Positions 3,828 to 13,042 of a DNA stretch of 43,590 nt are shown here, piece after piece. Source of the DNA: an uncultured Eubacteriales bacterium. GTDB lineage: Bacteria > Bacillota > Clostridia > Lachnospirales > Bianqueaceae. The position numbers were made by a program, and so were the translations under genes. Position 1 is the first letter of the stretch. Each line of letters begins with the position of its first letter. The notes under the pieces are model-generated. The model was not told where the DNA came from. It saw nothing but the letters and a program-made list of their open reading frames with translations, and searched no databases. The stretch is taken from contig OMYN01000015.1 of the NCBI GenBank assembly GCA_900315265.1, positions 1-43,590 of the forward strand, in the 5' to 3' direction.

Positions 3828-4985
3828 ATGGATATAAAACTTCCTTCAAATGCTCGTAAACAAACGATCAATAAAACGACCTATGTATACATTGATAAAC
3901 CTTTTTGGAATCCGCAGCGAAAACGCGGGGAGCATAAAAGAGAATATATCGGAAAAATGGATAACGATGTTTTCATCCCTAATAAACTGTACCGGAAACA
4001 ACTTGAAATAGAAGAGATGCGAAAACAAAAAGCGCTTTCGGAGGGTGCCGCTGATCCTACTTCCAGCGACAATCCTTCCGATAGTCTTTCCGACAGCCTA
4101 TCCGGCAGTTCCTCCAATAAAATAAAAAGCCCTTTATTGGTGCTGGACCGGATCAGTGAGAAATATCAGGTCAAACAAGCACTATGCTGCTTATTTCCGG
4201 ATCATTATCAAGAGTTACTTTATTTATGTTATTATATTGCCTTGGAAGGCGCTGTTACTTTTGACCATTTTACCAACTGGGCTATCCAACAGAATATACC
4301 GTGGCAGAAAGAACGTACGATGCAAGATATCGAAGCGCTGCTGCATTCAATAACCCCTGCGATCTATGACGGGTACTGTCAAAAAATCTCCTTTGTCTTC
4401 AAACAGGCTGATATGATCGCCTATGATATCACGATGGAGCAAGATCAAAGACAGGTTTCAACTGTATCTTGCTCTGACTCGTTTTTTTCCCCGCATTTTC
4501 TGCTGATCGTCCATCGCCGTTTTGGGATCCCTGTCTATCTTTGCGGTTGTGAAAACCAAACTGAAATCAACGACCGCATTCGAGGCATTCGCATCGGCCG
4601 TTCTGATGCTCAGCCTGTCTATTCCAAGATCACTGTTTATCCGGATCCTTATCTTGAATCTTCTGCAGGGGAAAACTTCCTGCACAAACCATTAATAGAG
4701 AGCATTCTTCAAGTGATCCGTAAATGCAAATACTTTTATACCTATCAAACATCCGGACATGGCATTTCCGGCTACCCCTATTTTTTCCTGTCTTTTATTG
4801 CTTTACAATTGACAACTATTTTGGATATTTACTGTGACCTTCTGCTTTCCAAACCATCTGAACAGGTAATCGCCGATCTTTACCGTTTTGATAACAAAAG
4901 GGAAGCCTCCTCTTCGACCTTGGGCCCCGAAGACAAGAAAACGGATGGGTTTTTAAGGCTGATAGATAATATCGCCAAAATATGA
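3828..4985 (+). CDS. IS1634-type transposase derivative, internally deleted
   Basis: 385 aa, against roughly 550-600 for intact IS1634-group (IS4 superfamily) transposases. The N-terminus (TTYVYIDKPFWNPQRKRGEHK, then EYIGKMDNDVFIPNK) matches the family opening KtYVYe..yWd..kkq.r.kR..IGKld. It is followed by a Ser/Asp-rich linker (residues 70-100), SPLLVLDRISEKYQV and a first DDE-type Asp in MIAYDIT. The segment normally carrying the second Asp (DRGF) and the catalytic Glu is absent; the protein passes straight to the C-terminal FLSFIALQL helix. The long frame has stayed open despite the loss of catalytic parts. It may be a decaying remnant or a domesticated DNA-binding protein. It has no visible ribosome site; the TATAAAAC next to the start lies inside the 33-bp repeat. 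Confidence 0.6.
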   Translation: MDIKLPSNARKQTINKTTYVYIDKPFWNPQRKRGEHKREYIGKMDNDVFIPNKLYRKQLEIEEMRKQKALSEGAADPTSSDNPSDSLSDSLSGSSSNKIKSPLLVLDRISEKYQVKQALCCLFPDHYQELLYLCYYIALEGAVTFDHFTNWAIQQNIPWQKERTMQDIEALLHSITPAIYDGYCQKISFVFKQADMIAYDITMEQDQRQVSTVSCSDSFFSPHFLLIVHRRFGIPVYLCGCENQTEINDRIRGIRIGRSDAQPVYSKITVYPDPYLESSAGENFLHKPLIESILQVIRKCKYFYTYQTSGHGISGYPYFFLSFIALQLTTILDIYCDLLLSKPSEQVIADLYRFDNKREASSSTLGPEDKKTDGFLRLIDNIAKI

Positions 4986-5012: not shown

Positions 5013-5041
5013 TTGACATCATTCGAAGTTGATGATATAAA
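5013..5041 (+). promoter_or_regulatory. Sigma-A-type promoter of the RiPP operon
   Basis: TTGACA (5013-5018), a 17-bp spacer and TATAAA (5036-5041) form a near-consensus promoter. It lies 60 bp before the glycosyltransferase start, and no other good promoter is seen before the ABC transporter. Confidence 0.75.
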
Positions 5042-5062
5042 ATAGATACAGGTTATATCTAT
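5042..5062. promoter_or_regulatory. Inverted repeat at the operon transcription start
   Basis: ATAGATA and TATCTAT are perfect 7-bp arms separated by 7 nt, directly after the -10 box. The position fits a repressor operator or a 5' UTR hairpin. No regulator gene is present in the operon. Confidence 0.45.
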
Positions 5063-5100
5063 TAAACCTTGTCGTTTGCGACCTGCACAAGAGGAAAACT

Positions 5101-6102
5101 ATGCGTAAAGTTCTGTTTCTCGTTAATGGTCAAGGATGGGGACATGCCGTAAGGGATCTTATGATTGCAAAGAAGATCCACGAACTCGATAAAAGCACGA
5201 TGATTTATTTTGCTTCGTCTGAAGATGGGCTGCGTTACTTTACTCTTCAGGATATCGATTGTCTCTCTCTTGACGCAATCACTTATCTTGATCTTTATTC
5301 TCTTGTGAAACCGGATCTGATCGTATCGGATGAAGACTTTAAGGCATTAGCCAGCTATCAGCTGCTATTGTCCAAACTGGTTTTCATCACCAATTATCTG
5401 GATCTGATCGATAGGGATACTTTGACACTCTTGTCGCAATGTCATTGTGTCCTGTTCTGTGAATTCTCTGATTCCGTACACAATAAAAACGCGATTTCGG
5501 ACAATGTGCTGTTTGTCGGTCCCCCATGCTCCTGGGACTGTACAGCCGTTTCTACTTCGAATACAGAAAAAACGGGAGTTCGAACATTCATAGGTCGAAC
5601 CATTCTGATTAGGCTGGGTGGGTGTCATAACTCCTCTGCACGCTTGGAGAATTACCAGCTGCTGTATCGATTAGGTAAGGTTCGCTTGCATAACTATACT
5701 TTTTTACTGGCAGATACTTCGTATACTGCCCTTCACATTCCCTGGAACACGACTATGCATGTGATCGACCCCGGCCGGATCGACCAATCCCTTCTTGATT
5801 CGTGTCATCTGATCATTGCAAGAGGGGGATGGAACACTCTTTGGGAAAGTGCTTTTTTAAAAAAACGCTGTCTCTCTATTCCCTACTCCGACAAAGTCAA
5901 CCCATTGGAAGAGTACACAGCTCTTACGATGAAACAAAGACACCTGATTTCAAGCATCTGTCTGGACAATGGTCAAACCGACCTTCAAGCGCAGTTGGCT
6001 CAATCGATCGATTCGAAAGATCCTCTTATTTCTCCTGCAAGCTGGATCGCTCAGCAGCCGAACCGATCAAGCCTGAACGATGTTCTTCGAAAACTAGCGT
6101 GA
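5101..6102 (+). CDS. GT-B fold glycosyltransferase of the RiPP operon
   Basis: 333 aa. The N-terminal GQGWGHAVRDLMIAKKI is the glycine-rich acceptor-domain loop of MurG/UGT-like GT-B enzymes. The C-terminal half holds IIARGGWNTLWES (RGGWN at residues 241-245), the family's nucleotide-sugar-binding G.GG/E region. The middle residues D-L-I-V-S-D-E-D and VLFVGPP fit the inter-domain beta-alpha units. No membrane segment is seen. It is the first gene after the promoter at 5013, 33 nt before the radical SAM gene. The place in the operon suggests that it glycosylates the peptide product, as the S- or O-glycosyltransferases of glycocins do. That is inference; the sugar and acceptor are unknown. Codons are AT-rich compared with the ATP synthase genes. 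Confidence 0.75.
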   Translation: MRKVLFLVNGQGWGHAVRDLMIAKKIHELDKSTMIYFASSEDGLRYFTLQDIDCLSLDAITYLDLYSLVKPDLIVSDEDFKALASYQLLLSKLVFITNYLDLIDRDTLTLLSQCHCVLFCEFSDSVHNKNAISDNVLFVGPPCSWDCTAVSTSNTEKTGVRTFIGRTILIRLGGCHNSSARLENYQLLYRLGKVRLHNYTFLLADTSYTALHIPWNTTMHVIDPGRIDQSLLDSCHLIIARGGWNTLWESAFLKKRCLSIPYSDKVNPLEEYTALTMKQRHLISSICLDNGQTDLQAQLAQSIDSKDPLISPASWIAQQPNRSSLNDVLRKLA

Positions 6103-6135
6103 TTTTCATAAAATCATTTTGTAAAGGAGGCAGTC

Positions 6136-7461
6136 ATGAACTGGAAGAAAAAGATCGAAACTCACGACCGGTATCTGGCTATTTCTTTTCCAAACACTGA
6201 AAACTGCCTTCTTACCAACCTATATGATAATTGTACGATGTCGGTGACACAGGATGACCTTGCCAAATTTCAAAGTATCCTTAAGGAGGAAAAACTGTCT
6301 CAGCTGGCTTCAAAACTGATCGCTAACGGCCTTTTACGGTTTCGCGGGCAGCAGACCGTCCTGGATCAGGAAAATGATCGATTTCCCTCTGTCGTATACT
6401 GGGGACTGACCGATCGCTGCAATCTTAGATGCCGTTATTGTTACGGTTGTTTTGGGGAAAACAAAGAAGCGGTCCCTTTGTCCCGGATGGATGCCTGCAC
6501 GATAATCGATCGATCAACAGAACTCGGCGTTCAAAAAATCAACCTGACAGGCGGTGAGGCATCCCTGCATCCCCTGCTTTTCCAAATAGCCGAACAGATC
6601 CGTGCCAAAGGAATCGACTGCGGACTATTAACGAACGCACAGGCCATCACCGCTGAAAATGCAGGTAAGTATAAGGTTTTCAGTTATGTAAAAGTAAGTT
6701 TGGATTCGCAGTATGCGGATCTCAATGACGCCTGCCGGGGCTCCGGCAGCTATCAGAAAACGATCGAAAGTCTTTCTTTACTGCGCCGGGAAAACATTCC
6801 GGTCAGTATAGGATGTGTCATCAACCGACTGAACTACCGGCAGATCGATTCATTTCAACAATGGTTGGAAGATCGTTTCGGCATCACGGACGTTTACCCT
6901 GCTTATCTGACTCCTACCGGACGCGGGACCGGTACAGGCTTGGATCTATCGGAAGATCAAGTACTGGAAACAGAAAATCAACTGTTTACCAGACTGATGA
7001 AGGATGACCGATATCGACAGCGTGCGCTTAAAAAGCAAAACCTTAAACGTGCCCGCGTGAGTACCCGCTGCGGCATGGGCATGACGGAAGTCTTCCTTAA
7101 TTATGCCGGGCAGGTTTACCCCTGCCGAGCAACGTATGAGCCGGACATGGATGCCGGTAATCTTTTGACTGATCCCCCGGAAACCATCCTTGACAGATTG
7201 CATGCTATTTCGGACCAATATGATGTAGCCCGCCTTTCCTGCCGTGACTGTGATTTTCGTTTTCTCTGCTCCGGAGGCTGCCGGGTCTATCATAAGGCGT
7301 ACACAGGCAGCTGGACCATCAATAGTCCGGTCATCTGCCGGCGAAAAATCAATGAAATCTGTCATTCGATCATACTGAATTCCGGATTATCCGGAATCTC
7401 ATCCTACACCTATCAGGTTATATCTCTGACAAGCGAAACCAATCAGCCTGGCAGGGTATAA
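6136..7461 (+). CDS. Radical SAM/SPASM peptide maturase
   Basis: 441 aa, start preceded by GGAGG. Residues 1-85 form a small domain that may be a winged-helix recognition element. The radical SAM cluster motif is Cys95, Cys99 and Cys102 in CNLRCRYCYG, followed by LTGGEASLHP (SAM-binding GGE) and VKVSLDS. A C-terminal SPASM domain has Cys312, Cys330, then CX2CX5CX3C at Cys369, 372, 378 and 382, and Cys401, ligands for auxiliary 4Fe-4S clusters. Such enzymes install thioether (sactionine or ranthionine), C-C or epimer modifications on ribosomal peptides. Immediately downstream (27 nt) lies a 32-aa Cys/Gly-rich peptide that is the likely substrate. Which reaction occurs cannot be told from sequence. 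Confidence 0.92.
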   Translation: MNWKKKIETHDRYLAISFPNTENCLLTNLYDNCTMSVTQDDLAKFQSILKEEKLSQLASKLIANGLLRFRGQQTVLDQENDRFPSVVYWGLTDRCNLRCRYCYGCFGENKEAVPLSRMDACTIIDRSTELGVQKINLTGGEASLHPLLFQIAEQIRAKGIDCGLLTNAQAITAENAGKYKVFSYVKVSLDSQYADLNDACRGSGSYQKTIESLSLLRRENIPVSIGCVINRLNYRQIDSFQQWLEDRFGITDVYPAYLTPTGRGTGTGLDLSEDQVLETENQLFTRLMKDDRYRQRALKKQNLKRARVSTRCGMGMTEVFLNYAGQVYPCRATYEPDMDAGNLLTDPPETILDRLHAISDQYDVARLSCRDCDFRFLCSGGCRVYHKAYTGSWTINSPVICRRKINEICHSIILNSGLSGISSYTYQVISLTSETNQPGRV

Positions 7462-7488
7462 TAAAATCTCGAAAGGAGGAACATGACC

Positions 7489-7587
7489 ATGTATGAAAAG
7501 CCTGCAATGGAAGAGACCGAACTGATCGTTTATACGAAGTGCGGATGTGGGTGCGGCGGCCACAACGGCGAAGGCGCCGGCTGCTGA
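7489..7587 (+). CDS. RiPP precursor peptide (CGCGC core)
   Basis: 32 aa. The ATG at 7489 is 9 nt from AGGAGG (7474-7479); an in-frame ATG at 7483 is only 3 nt away and is less likely. The leader is MYEKPAMEETELIVYTK, acidic in the middle with a hydrophobic LIVY, the type of stretch bound by PqqD/RRE domains. The putative core is CGCGCGGHNGEGAGC: Cys18, Cys20 and Cys22, and a final Cys32, with 7 Gly in 15 residues. It has no double-Gly processing site. The gene lies between the maturase and the PqqD gene, with a very strong ribosome site and a hairpin behind it, the usual arrangement for an over-produced precursor. Four cysteines could accept thioethers from the radical SAM enzyme or a sugar from the glycosyltransferase; both are inference. 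Confidence 0.85.
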   Translation: MYEKPAMEETELIVYTKCGCGCGGHNGEGAGC

Positions 7588-7604
7588 AAGGTACATGTCA
7601 TCGA

Positions 7605-7631
7605 CCGCGGCCTTGTTTACCTGGGCCGCGG
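7605..7631 (+). terminator. Hairpin after the precursor gene (attenuator or stabiliser)
   Basis: CCGCGGCC (7605-7612) and GGCCGCGG (7624-7631) form a perfect 8-bp GC stem with an 11-nt loop, 18 nt after the precursor stop. The T-run needed for full intrinsic termination is missing (CCTCCCCTT follows). It more likely protects or partly terminates the upstream mRNA, so that precursor exceeds downstream enzymes. Confidence 0.6.
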
Positions 7632-7682
7632 CCTCCCCTTACCATCGAATCAAGCTTACGGAAAAACATAAGGAGGCCCTTT

Positions 7683-7940
7683 ATGCTTCATTTACGTGAC
7701 GGGATCGTGATCGAATTCAGCGAAGGCAATGACGCCTATGTACTGATGGATCTTGACGAAGGTAAAGTATATAAGCTTAACTCTACCGCTCATAAAATGC
7801 TCTCTTCCATTGAAAACACCGGAAGCCTTCAGCAATACTATGATGAGGTCAGAGACCAGGCAGATGATCAGACGATCCGCCGGGATGCGTCTGATTATTT
7901 GAATGAACTTATCAGTAAGGGATATGTTATCGATGAATGA
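7683..7940 (+). CDS. PqqD-family RiPP recognition protein
   Basis: 85 aa, preceded by AAGGAGG. It has the PqqD/RRE pattern: an N-terminal beta hairpin (LRDGIVIEFSEGNDAYVLMDLDEGKVYKLN), then STAHKMLSSIEN and a helical end (DYLNELISKGYVIDE). Free-standing PqqD-like proteins bind the precursor leader and hand it to the radical SAM enzyme or peptidase. Its stop overlaps the start of the next gene by 8 nt, which implies coupled translation. Confidence 0.85.
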   Translation: MLHLRDGIVIEFSEGNDAYVLMDLDEGKVYKLNSTAHKMLSSIENTGSLQQYYDEVRDQADDQTIRRDASDYLNELISKGYVIDE

Positions 7941-8691
7941 ACCGGATATACCATCACATTTACCCGCCTATCATATTGGCAATGCAAAAGAAATTAAACC
8001 AGTAGAAAATTTTTCAGCCACGACTCGCGGCCAATCGATGCTCCCTTTGATCAAAGATGGAGATAAGATAAGTTACAGACCTGTCAATGAGGGAAAAGTT
8101 GACATCGGTCAGGTCGTTCTGGCTTTTGACGGCAAACATTTTTTCAGTCACAGGATCATTGATCGAATCGGAAGCAAATATGTGCTTAAAGGGGATAACA
8201 ATCATTATATCGACGGTTTGTTCGAAAAAAAGTCTCTGATCGGAGCCGCTGTATCCGAAAAGGTAAATGACGACCGATTTTCTGTTCTTTTTAAAGAAAA
8301 GGAAGCTTTTTGGGCCAAGATCACTTTTACAGGAAACCTGTTCGAGTCATCGACTTTTCAAAAGGCCTGTTTTGAACATATGCCTTTCCATTTTGAATCA
8401 CAGGTACCCTCCGGAACGGATCTACACATAGGAATCGACCGGACAAGTGGGATCACTTTTTCCGAGGGACTTTTAAATCATTTTGAAGAACTATATAACG
8501 CTCGATCCATTTGTATCGATTTTTCCCTTAAGGAAGATGATCCTCATAAAGATATGACCTACACGTATTGTTGGAATATAGAAGGGCAATATCAGATTCC
8601 CGGACTCGATCAAAAGGATCAATGTCTGATGATTATTGGCATGTTAAGTCAATGCCTTACCAGGAGGCTGCGTCATGACAAATCTATTTAA
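7933..8691 (+). CDS. S24/S26-type serine peptidase with unknown C-terminal domain
   Basis: 252 aa from the ATG at 7933 inside the end of the PqqD gene. Residues 28-110 hold the LexA/signal-peptidase fold: TRGQSMLPLI with nucleophile Ser35, DIGQVVLAF, HRIID, and YVLKGDNN with general base Lys86. There is no N-terminal membrane anchor, unlike true signal peptidase I. About 130 residues follow (PFHFESQVPSG, LHIGIDRTSGITFSEG, YTYCWNIEGQYQI) that I do not recognise. They could be a substrate-binding domain and are faintly like the N-terminus of HPr-kinase-like RiPP proteins. As the exporter has no C39 peptidase domain and the leader lacks a GG site, this is the best candidate for leader removal. 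It overlaps the ABC gene by 17 nt. Confidence 0.75.
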   Translation: MNEPDIPSHLPAYHIGNAKEIKPVENFSATTRGQSMLPLIKDGDKISYRPVNEGKVDIGQVVLAFDGKHFFSHRIIDRIGSKYVLKGDNNHYIDGLFEKKSLIGAAVSEKVNDDRFSVLFKEKEAFWAKITFTGNLFESSTFQKACFEHMPFHFESQVPSGTDLHIGIDRTSGITFSEGLLNHFEELYNARSICIDFSLKEDDPHKDMTYTYCWNIEGQYQIPGLDQKDQCLMIIGMLSQCLTRRLRHDKSI

Positions 8692-10369
8692 GATTTCGTC
8701 TGCTTTTAATAAGGATAAAGAACTGACACAAAAAGCTCACCGGCTTTTGTGGATATGTCTGGCCGTTTCCCTTGTGACGGCGGCGATCCAGTTTTTCGGT
8801 CCGCTTGCTGCCCGGCAGTATCTGGATCAGATTTCCACCGCAAACATCCTGACGGCCTGCGCTATTATCCTGGGCAGTTTTCTGTCAGTCGGTCTTTTGC
8901 AGCTTCTGTTTCTGCTCTACAAATATAAAAGCGGGGTCCATATCAAGGCTTCCATGCTGGGGACCCTGATCACCCGTATCCTGACCATGCGCTACGATGC
9001 CCTGATTGCCAAAGAACCGACTTATCTTTTGGACAGGTCCGGAGAATGCGTCAACAACCTTTTCGATTACTACACCGAGACCCTGCCGGATCTGTTTAGG
9101 ACCCTGATCACCCTTGCCGCCTGTTATGCAGCCGCTTTTCTGATTCACTGGCCCTTAGCGGTTATTTTCACGCTGGTCCTTCTGGTCCAGGTTTTCGGCT
9201 ACCGCGGGCTCAATCAGAAGCTGGGGACCATGAGCGTGAAGCTCTCCAAGATCGCCTCCCGCAAATTCACCATCCTCAGTTCGCTGCTGGGCAATGTTGA
9301 CTTTTTGAAGCAGCTGCCGGACCGCAGCGCGGTTGCCAAATTTGTCTATGACAAAGACCGCGAGGAAAAACAGGTCGAAGCGGACATCAACATTTACGCC
9401 GGTAAGGTCAGCATCATCTTCGATAACCTCCTGTCCATCCTGTCCAACGGGGTCTATGTCTACATCCCTATCGCCCTCATGCTGGGCTGGCTGGACCTGG
9501 GCGACTCTGTCTATCTGGCCCTGGTAAGCGGGCTTTTTATGCCGGCCGCCAAACGCATGGTCGGCGTACAGCTGAACATGAAAGCCCTTTACGCAGCCAA
9601 TGACTTTTTGAGTCAGGATCTGGCTCCCAACCTGGAAGAGGAAAATAAAGGGATGTCTCTGGCCGGACCGGTCACCGACATTTCCATGGATATCAACAAC
9701 TTTTCCATCGATAAGAAGCTGCTGGTACAAAACGGCAAGGCTCATATCGAATCCGGCAACATCGTCAAAGTGGCCGGTCAGACGGGCTGCGGAAAATCAA
9801 CGCTGATGAAAGCCCTGGTCGGCTTCCGCCCGGTCGACAAGGTGACGCTGGACGGGCAGGCCCTCGACACGCTGAGCAAGGCCAGCATCCGCAGCCACAT
9901 CCTCTACATCCCCCAGCAGGCGCCTATCTTTTCGGGGACCGTCGCGGACAATATCACCCTGGGGCTTACTCCGCCCATGAGCGTGGATCAGCTGGCCAAG
10001 CGTTTAAAGGGCACGGTTTTTGAAAAATATGTATCCGATGCTTACGGTCTGTCGACCGCCATCGTTGAAAACGGCGCCAACCTATCAGGCGGCGACCGCC
10101 AGAAGATCTCGCTGGCCAAGGTCGAAGTCTTCGACTGGGACGTGCTGATTTTGGACGAGGCCACCAGCGCCATGGACGCCGAGACTGAAGACCGCATGCT
10201 GGGCTATATCTGTCAAAAAGCCAAAGAGCGCCGCGCCATCGTCTTCATTATTTCCCACTCAAGCACCATCGACGCTTTCTGCAGCAAAGAAATCCTGATC
10301 CAAGACCGGCATCTGGAATGCCTGCCGCTGGATCCGTGTCCTGAACGTCAGCCTCTTGAGGAAATGTAA
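8675..10369 (+). CDS. ABC exporter (fused permease-ATPase) of the RiPP operon
   Basis: 564 aa half-transporter, which should work as a homodimer in the membrane. Residues 20-320 hold about six hydrophobic segments (LLWICLAVSLVTAAIQFFG, ILTACAIILGSFLSVGLL, FLIHWPLAVIFTLVLLVQV and others). The ATPase domain has Walker A GQTGCGKST at residue 368, signature LSGGDRQKISLAK near 470, Walker B VLILDEATSAMD near 490, and the H-loop IISHSS. No N-terminal C39 peptidase is present. It is last in the operon and likely exports the modified peptide or gives self-protection. The first 75 bp keep the AT-rich codon style of the upstream genes, but from about 8740 on the gene is strongly GC-rich. Confidence 0.9.
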   Translation: MTNLFKISSAFNKDKELTQKAHRLLWICLAVSLVTAAIQFFGPLAARQYLDQISTANILTACAIILGSFLSVGLLQLLFLLYKYKSGVHIKASMLGTLITRILTMRYDALIAKEPTYLLDRSGECVNNLFDYYTETLPDLFRTLITLAACYAAAFLIHWPLAVIFTLVLLVQVFGYRGLNQKLGTMSVKLSKIASRKFTILSSLLGNVDFLKQLPDRSAVAKFVYDKDREEKQVEADINIYAGKVSIIFDNLLSILSNGVYVYIPIALMLGWLDLGDSVYLALVSGLFMPAAKRMVGVQLNMKALYAANDFLSQDLAPNLEEENKGMSLAGPVTDISMDINNFSIDKKLLVQNGKAHIESGNIVKVAGQTGCGKSTLMKALVGFRPVDKVTLDGQALDTLSKASIRSHILYIPQQAPIFSGTVADNITLGLTPPMSVDQLAKRLKGTVFEKYVSDAYGLSTAIVENGANLSGGDRQKISLAKVEVFDWDVLILDEATSAMDAETEDRMLGYICQKAKERRAIVFIISHSSTIDAFCSKEILIQDRHLECLPLDPCPERQPLEEM

Positions 10370-10378
10370 GACCCGCCT

Positions 10379-12910
10379 TCAGGCCAGGAACCTGCCGGTC
10401 CGGCTCTGGGAACAGTTTTTCACGTCCTTAAGCGTTCCGGCCGCCACGATGGTGCCGCCTTCCTCTCCGCCTCCGGGCCCCATATCGATGATGTAATCAG
10501 CATTGCTGATCACGTCCAGGTCGTGCTCAATGACGATCAGCGTTGCTCCCTGCCGGATCAGGCGCTGGAAAACCGTCAGCAGATTCTGCACGTCCGCAGG
10601 ATGCAGGCCTATGGTCGGCTCATCAAAGACAAAAACGGATCCTTCCTGTCCTCTTCCCATCTCATCCGCCAGTTTCAGCCTCTGTGCCTCCCCGCCGGAA
10701 AGGCCAGGCGTCTCTTCGCCCAGGGTAAGATAGCCAAGACCCAGGTCATGGAGCGTCTGAAGGCGCCGGGCGATCTGCGGCCGTGACGCGCAGACGGCAA
10801 GGGCCTGGTCGACGCTCATATTCATCAGATCCGGCAGGCTGTATTCCTTTCCGTCATCCCACTTCCGTTTGATCTTTTCCGCCTCTTTTCCATAGCGGGA
10901 CCCTCGGCAGTCCGGGCAGGTCACCTCCACGTCCGGAAGAAATTGAATATCCAGCGAAATGGTGCCGGTCCCGTCACAGGTCGAACAGCGCAGTTTTCCC
11001 GTATTATAGGAAAAATCACCAGCCTTGAAGCCGCCTTCTTTTGCCGTCTTGCAAGAGGCATACAGCTTGCGCAGAGGGTCATGGATATCTGCATAGGTTG
11101 CCACCGTAGAACGAATATTGATGCCGATCGGAGTGGCATCGATCAGCTTGACCAGGCGGATGCCGTCCGCCTGGATCGACGTTACATGGGGCGGCAGGCT
11201 CTTGCCGTTTATGTGTGCCGCAAGAGCCGGAACCAGGCTTTCCAGTACCAGGGTCGTCTTACCCGACCCGGATACTCCGGTCACGACCGTCATCCTGCCG
11301 CAGGGGATATCCACCTGCAAAGGATGGACCGTATGGATACGGCCGGTTTCCATGTGGATCGTTCCCTGGCTGAAAATCTGATCCTCCGGGACCAAGGGAC
11401 GGATCCGCGTCTTTTTCCCCGCAAGATAGGGGCCGATCAAAGAATCCTTATTGTTGATCATGTCGCTGACGGTTCCCTTGGCGATAACGCTGCCTCCGTC
11501 AGCTCCCGCCCCTTTGCCCATTTCGATGAGATAGTCCGCGTGGCTTAAGACCTGGGTGTCATGATCCACCAGCACGACCGAATTGCCGTCGGCTGCCAGA
11601 TCGTCCATGACCCCGGTCAGGCCTTTCAGATTATAAGGGTGAAGTCCGATGGACGGTTCATCCAGTACATATAAAATACCGGTCGTACGGTTGCGGACGG
11701 CCCTGGCCAGCTGCACCCGCTGCCTTTCTCCCGTCGACAGGGTCCCGGCCGCCCGGTCCAGTGACAAATAGCCCAGTCCCAGGTCCATCAGCCGTTTGGA
11801 CGTATCCAGGAAGGATTCGCAGATGCTGTGGGCCATAGGCTTCATTGGATCCGGAAGCGAGTCCGGGACTTTTTTGACCCATTCGATCAGATCCGACAGA
11901 GTCATGGCAGAAGCGTCCGCCAGACTGATCCCGCACAGCTTAGGAGCCCTGGCCGCTTCCGACAGTCTGGTTCCATGACAGTCTGGACAGACCCCTTCCT
12001 TCAAATACTTTTCCACCCGCTTCATGCCCTTTTCATCTTTAACCTTGGAAAGGGCATTTTCAACGGTCCGGACCGCACTGAAGTAGGTAAAGTCCATCTC
12101 TCCCTGTTCCTGAGAGTTAGGATTGAAATAAGTCATATGCTTCTTGACCGCCGGTCCGTGCAGAACGATCTCCTTTTCCTGATCGGTCAGGTCCTTGTAG
12201 GGGACATCGGTCCTGACCCCCATCAGACGGCAGACGTCCTTCATCAGCGACCACATAAGGGTCCCCCAGACGGCAACGGCTCCCTGATCGATGGTCAGGT
12301 TTTCATCGGTGATCAGGGTGCTTTCGTCTACCGTACGGACGATCCCCGTGCCCCCGCAGGTGGGGCAGGCTCCGGAACTGTTAAAAGCCAGGTCTTCGGC
12401 CCCCGGCCCGTAAAATTGGGCTCCGCACACGGGGCAGATGATAGGAGTCATAGAAGCGACCGCAAAAGACGGCGGGCAGTAATGGCCGTTAGGGCAGCGA
12501 TGGCTGGCCAGTCTGGAAAACATAAGCCTGAGACTGTTCAAGAGCTCGGTCATGGTGCCGAAGGTGCTGCGGATGCCCGGTACCCCCGGCCGCTGGTGCA
12601 GGGCCAGGGAAGCAGGGATGTAACGGACATCATCTACATCCGCCCGTCCTGCCTGGGTCATGCGCCGTCTGGTATAAGTAGACAGGGATTCCAGATACCG
12701 CCGGGATCCTTCGGCATACAATACCCCCAGTGCCAGCGACGACTTGCCTGAGCCGGACACACCGGCGATCCCCACGATCTTGTGTAAGGGAACGTCCACA
12801 TCGATGTTCTTCAGATTGTGGACTCTGGCTCCCCTCACTTCTATGCATGGAGGGATGTTCTGCAGGCCGCTCTCAATCTGCTCATTGTTGACCCGTTCTC
12901 CTTCAGCCAT
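10379..12910 (-). CDS. UvrA-like ABC ATPase (class II UvrA)
   Basis: 843 aa from the ATG at 12910, which has GGGAGGG 9 nt upstream; an ATG at 12928 precedes that site. It contains two ABC cassettes: Walker [10 protein letters not shown] and GVSGSGKTT, signatures [12 protein letters not shown] and [12 protein letters not shown], Walker [12 protein letters not shown] and [11 protein letters not shown]. It has zinc-finger cysteines [13 protein letters not shown] and [15 protein letters not shown]. It is about 100 residues shorter than UvrA because the UvrB-binding part after the first Walker A is reduced, typical of class II UvrA proteins linked to drug tolerance (DrrC-like). It ends 9 bp from the end of the convergent ABC exporter gene. 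Whether it helps resist the island's product is unknown. Confidence 0.85.
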
Positions 12911-13042
12911 CTTACTATTCCCTCCCATTCATCGATTCGATCATATTGGATACTTTATTATTTAATCGGTGGTTTTTTGTTTTCACATTATTATACGAAA
13001 ACATTACTTATCCGATTGGTGAAGCCTCTGGCACTTCCTAGT

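Follow-up and report, generated by a model that had tools for sequence, protein, structure and literature searches.

The window analyzed here (a contig of 43,590 nucleotides) contains a run of six genes on the plus strand, preceded by a near-consensus promoter-like site, TTGACA-N17-TATAAA, at positions 5013 to 5041 of the same strand. This site was the sole 11/12 sigma-70-like match in the window (expected number over the two strands, 0.4) and was missed by a stock promoter scan that requires T at the last position. The genes encode, in order, a glycosyltransferase (GT; 5101 to 6102, 333 aa), a radical SAM/SPASM peptide maturase (6136 to 7461, 441 aa), a precursor peptide (7489 to 7587, 32 aa), a PqqD-like RiPP recognition protein (7683 to 7940, 85 aa), an S24/S26-type (signal-peptidase-like) peptidase (7933 to 8691, or from an alternative start at 7903), and an ABC exporter with a membrane domain and an ATPase (8675 to 10369). 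All six frames were open, and the promoter, the gene order, and the overlaps among the last three genes were confirmed as given in the preliminary description. The stop of the PqqD-like gene overlaps the start of the peptidase gene by 8 nt (start at 7933) or 38 nt (start at 7903), and the peptidase and exporter genes overlap by 17 nt. A single transcript would be expected to cover all six genes. A hairpin between the peptide and PqqD-like genes (7607 to 7629) was considered as an attenuator and rejected, being no more stable than shuffled sequences (z, −1.2).

Upstream of the operon, a 385-aa ORF (3828 to 4985) with a G+C content of 0.417 resembled an IS-type transposase by eye; a Pfam search gave no significant match for it. 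The G+C content of the operon was below that of its flanks, which together with the low-G+C ORF may be a mark of horizontal acquisition. Genes upstream of the exporter gene, the peptide gene excepted, had G+C contents of 0.40 to 0.48, and the exporter gene itself had approximately 0.49 over its first 330 nt and 0.55 thereafter. A UvrA-like protein (PF17755, PF00005) is encoded on the minus strand at 10379 to 12928, convergent with the operon. This extra UvrA-type paralogue could be a coincidental neighbor or a self-protection gene.

The precursor can be written as MYEKPAMEETELIVYTK-CGCGCGGHNGEGAGC, where the hyphen marks the probable border between a short, acidic leader and a 15-residue core. 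Of two in-frame ATG codons, the one at 7483 lies just 3 nt from a GGAGG motif and the one at 7489 has it 9 nt upstream; the latter was preferred as the start because of its good Shine-Dalgarno spacing. The core carries four Cys and a single Glu, lacks Ser and Thr, and ends in GEGAGC. When ORFs of 20 to 70 aa were required to have a Shine-Dalgarno site and four or more Cys among the last 20 residues, this CGCGC peptide alone passed in the 43.6 kb, compared with 0.07 per window in Markov random sequence. As a positive control, the scan recovered a SCIFF-like peptide in another genome; a SCIFF-like six-cysteine peptide from the ORF scan lies at locus L022, from position 4509 onward. The only NCBIfam match of the precursor was to StsA (NF045558; E value, 1.9e−4 with the 34-aa frame; 21.3 bits against a cut-off of 42) and was colinear across leader and core. 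Altered-sequence probes consisting of the leader alone, the core alone, or the peptide with Cys changed to Ser each lost the match, which thus rests on the leader and the Cys/Gly core combined. Searches of plasmids and phages with the precursor gave zero matches.

The maturase scored over the Pfam cut-offs for PF04055 (62 bits) and PF13186 (23 bits). Its radical SAM triad (CX3CX2C) was located at C95, C99, and C102, and it carries the auxiliary-cluster cysteines found in sactipeptide maturases, with all seven SPASM cysteines (312, 330, 369, 372, 378, 382, and 401) present and invariant in the alignment. Among 18,950 NCBIfam models the top match was StsB (NF045574; 173.5 bits against a cut-off of 625), followed by the mycofactocin radical SAM protein (TIGR03962; 111.7 bits against 265); the ranthipeptide model PapB gave 79.7 bits against a cut-off of 340. 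The core of an AF2 model matched anSME, CteB, SkfB, and SuiB with Z scores of 24 to 26.5, of which CteB and SkfB are thioether-forming maturases. Given these family matches and structural neighbors, the protein is predicted to be a peptide-modifying SPASM enzyme of the thioether-maker type that falls within no named subfamily. The N-terminal region, in which an RRE was sought, was modeled with a confidence under 50, and a BLAST comparison of the maturase with the PqqD-like protein showed no similarity.

Maturase and precursor thus independently gave the two halves of one named sactipeptide pair as their best NCBIfam matches. Since both scores are far under the cut-offs, the window pair appears to be a relative of StsA/StsB rather than a member. 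Of the available hints at sactionine chemistry, this agreement is the best. In sactipeptides the Cys sulfur is linked to a C-alpha atom, and in ranthipeptides to C-beta or C-gamma, for example of Asp or Glu. The StsA product could conceivably be streptosactin (GggA/GggB), whose reported Cys25/Cys31 spacing differs from the CGCGC of the window peptide. Radical SAM/SPASM enzymes catalyze many reactions, and the reaction is not fixed by sequence, so the peptide could also be a metal-binding or signaling (autoinducer) peptide in which the enzyme carries out epimerization or C-C linkage instead of thioether formation. Four Cys in a 15-residue core would suit such a role; however, the closest sequence relatives of the maturase that have an annotated peptide are sactipeptide maturases, and we regard this alternative as unlikely. 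Together, the family assignments, the StsA match, the peptide scan, and the structural model give good support to the earlier claim that this is a RiPP operon in which a radical SAM/SPASM enzyme accompanies a Gly/Cys peptide, and the operon very probably makes a 15-residue Cys/Gly-rich peptide cross-linked by the radical SAM enzyme.

The remaining RiPP functions were identified with varying strength. The PqqD-like protein matched PF05402 with 40 bits (cut-off, 23.4), and both exporter domains scored over their cut-offs (PF00664 and PF00005), with no C39 peptidase domain. The peptidase fell below the cut-offs for PF00717 (22.6 bits against 23.3) and TIGR02228 (25.5 bits), and the motifs GxSM and HRI...KGDNN could be read from its sequence; it is likely the leader protease.

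Searches for related clusters covered 19 genomes of the family, 392 of the order, and 391 of the class and recovered no strong maturase ortholog; viral contigs gave no maturase ortholog, and no ortholog of the exact cluster or peptide was found in the genomes searched. A pattern scan of genome contigs, built on an alignment of the real maturase and simulated rows that keep the catalytic motifs alone, returned distant radical SAM enzymes only, although relatives can escape such exact patterns. The radical SAM matches L009 to L013 and L020 to L024 and a match on a Streptantibioticus plasmid (L031) were set aside, as none had a similar peptide, GT, or PqqD/peptidase neighbors.

Sequence families described the GT weakly, with 38.1 bits to TIGR00661 (MJ1255), below the cut-off, and 21.3 bits to PF04101, slightly under it; a paralogue in the same genome scored 34.5 bits to PF04101, over the cut-off. 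The AF2 model (pLDDT, 70; pTM, 0.66) had Bacillus subtilis YjiC as its best Foldseek match (E value, 1.3e−9), with YjiC and MurG among the matches, and VIA gave Z scores near 20 for UGTs of plants and of the macrolide type. The model combines the GT-B fold with a C-terminal nucleotide-sugar motif, as in GT28 and GT1 enzymes, and the motifs RGGxxTLWE and PYSxKVNPxE are conserved. From model and sequence, the protein is most readily assigned as a GT-B enzyme of the GT28/YjiC-MurG type, related to MJ1255. No match to PF00535 was found, and the modeled fold is GT-B, so the GT-A features of the glycocin enzymes SunS and ThuS are absent.

The GT family is rare. Among 387 order and 391 class genomes, members were found at three loci only (the window, L035, and L036), confined to the genome of the window and that of a single congener, and at all three the gene that immediately follows the GT gene encodes a radical SAM enzyme. 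These represent two independent contexts rather than three, because the congener locus is orthologous to that on contig C23 of the window's genome, which carries L035. With approximately 9 radical SAM candidates in this genome and some 2,000 genes estimated from its size, the chance of such an adjacency arising twice is of the order of 1e−5. Shared ancestry of the gene pair is a natural alternative, but the radical SAM enzymes of the two contexts are only ∼25% identical across a partial match. The pairing of GT and radical SAM genes is the main new support obtained here; as members of the GT family were again seen upstream of radical SAM genes outside the window, the link between the two enzymes is better supported than from the window alone.

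The second cluster (L035, positions 1216 to 11475 of C23) encodes a putative regulator, a GT, three radical SAM/SPASM proteins directly downstream of it, an M16-like protein, two ABC proteins, and a 48-aa peptide. Its GT is 26% identical to that of the window across 312 aligned residues. The peptide has a Cys/Gly-rich tail, ends in the 15-residue core CASCCVVLGGGGTGC, and is followed by a terminator-like hairpin. Both clusters combine a GT upstream of radical SAM genes, ABC export, and a 15-residue Cys/Gly core ending in GxGC. L035 differs from the window in its three radical SAM genes, its M16-like gene, its pair of ABC genes, and its longer, unrelated leader, and no PqqD-like gene was seen in it. 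The congener cluster likewise starts with a GT (51.5% identical to that of L035) and a radical SAM gene, and its counterpart peptide, 72% conserved relative to the L035 peptide, is encoded on a separate contig beside an ABC pair; its core, CGQCCIILGGGGVGC, lacks Ser and Thr. The core layout common to the two clusters (Cys at 1, 5, and 15; Gly at 10, 12, and 14) was considered as proof of common chemistry and rejected as not significant, with a P value of 0.06 when the Cys/Gly composition was fixed and 0.31 when the end Cys was fixed as well. A third related peptide, MQEKTEINFEELKELVKQMHLEDEFDLMEIGRCSSCCDKCNGGNC, was seen on the minus strand at approximately 7995 to 8165 of contig C3 of the window's genome (L047), adjoining an ABC gene at the contig end.

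The best reading of the operon is a sactipeptide-like RiPP variant, possibly S-glycosylated. The PqqD-like protein, perhaps together with the N-terminal region of the maturase, would bind and present the leader MYEKPAMEETELIVYTK, and the radical SAM/SPASM enzyme would abstract hydrogen atoms at backbone positions of the core CGCGCGGHNGEGAGC. At least one Cys-thioether link would be set, most likely to a Gly C-alpha (sactionine type), with a loss of 2 Da for each. The GT-B enzyme would then add a sugar to the core, most likely to a Cys left out of the cross-links. Provided that the core is the substrate of the GT, S-glycosylation is the likeliest outcome, since both GT-associated cores (CGCGCGGHNGEGAGC and CGQCCIILGGGGVGC) lack Ser and Thr and share Cys as a nucleophile. 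The peptidase would remove the leader, and the exporter would carry the product out. We give this explanation as a whole, a small exported RiPP with Cys-thioether cross-links, a core sugar added by a GT-B enzyme, and a leader cut by the peptidase, about an even chance (∼50%).

That the cross-linked product may also carry a sugar follows from the finding of this rare GT family only next to radical SAM enzymes. The GT could instead act on a small molecule, on the leader, or on a lipid of the cell envelope. Alternatively, this may be a plain sactipeptide or ranthipeptide operon with a sugar-free product, its GT serving self-protection, modifying the envelope, or placing a sugar on the leader. The core RiPP functions are complete without the GT, and no characterized sactipeptide in the reviews consulted comes with one (PMC8172795 mentions none). 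Yet the operon opens with the GT gene, and members of its family directly precede radical SAM genes at every locus found, one of them in a cluster that differs in leader and in transport genes; we consider a sugar-free product possible but somewhat unlikely. A broader proposal, that a dedicated GT-B family and radical SAM maturases define a RiPP class of ∼15-residue thioether-cross-linked peptides S-glycosylated on Cys (perhaps the C-terminal one), represented by two or more distinct clusters within a single little-studied bacterial genus, is put forward tentatively and is itself rather doubtful.

Should the glycosylated, cross-linked product be correct, one short peptide would bear both a radical-derived cross-link and a sugar from a GT-B enzyme, a combination not described for sactipeptides in the literature searched. 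It would also provide an S-glycosyltransferase for peptides that differs in fold from SunS and ThuS, and the rare GT family would serve as a marker by which genomes could be searched for further clusters of this kind.

Comparison with known systems changed two statements of the preliminary description. Its view that no described class has both enzymes was too strong, as mycofactocin biosynthesis already brings a radical SAM/SPASM enzyme together with the glycosyltransferase MftF, along with a PqqD-like chaperone, a peptidase, and a precursor of 31 aa (PMC7491314). The MftA-F set matches the window in functions and precursor length, and its radical SAM model was the second best for the maturase, so that a small glycosylated redox molecule kept inside the cell could be envisaged. 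However, mycofactocin has a Val-Tyr core and a GT2 enzyme and is an intracellular cofactor, whereas the window has a Cys/Gly-rich core with no C-terminal Val-Tyr, a predicted GT-B enzyme, and an exporter that suggests secretion, and the maturase scored under the mycofactocin cut-off; this origin is very improbable. The placement of the GT with glycocins was not supported either. S-glycocins such as sublancin and glycocin F resemble the proposed product in being small secreted peptides with a Cys-bound sugar, but their S-glycosyltransferases, including SunS and ThuS, have the GT-A fold, and they involve no radical SAM enzyme and another precursor type (PMC10373908).

Streptosactin and the streptococcal RaS-RiPPs of the GGG subfamily share a short precursor and a radical SAM/SPASM enzyme with the window, and their thioether acceptor is Gly (PMC8172795, PMC13361665); unlike the window, the streptosactin cluster comprises precursor, radical SAM, protease, and regulator genes, with no GT or PqqD listed. 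Open-access text searches found no published glycosylated sactipeptide. Co-occurrence of radical SAM enzymes and glycosyltransferases was reported from mining of Bacteroidales (PMC10352776), and RRE-Finder identified RRE-glycosyltransferase fusions, for which 4/9 clusters encode radical SAM enzymes (PMC7470986). What is unusual in the window is the combination of a GT-B enzyme from a rare family, a sactipeptide-like maturase, and a 15-residue Cys/Gly core.
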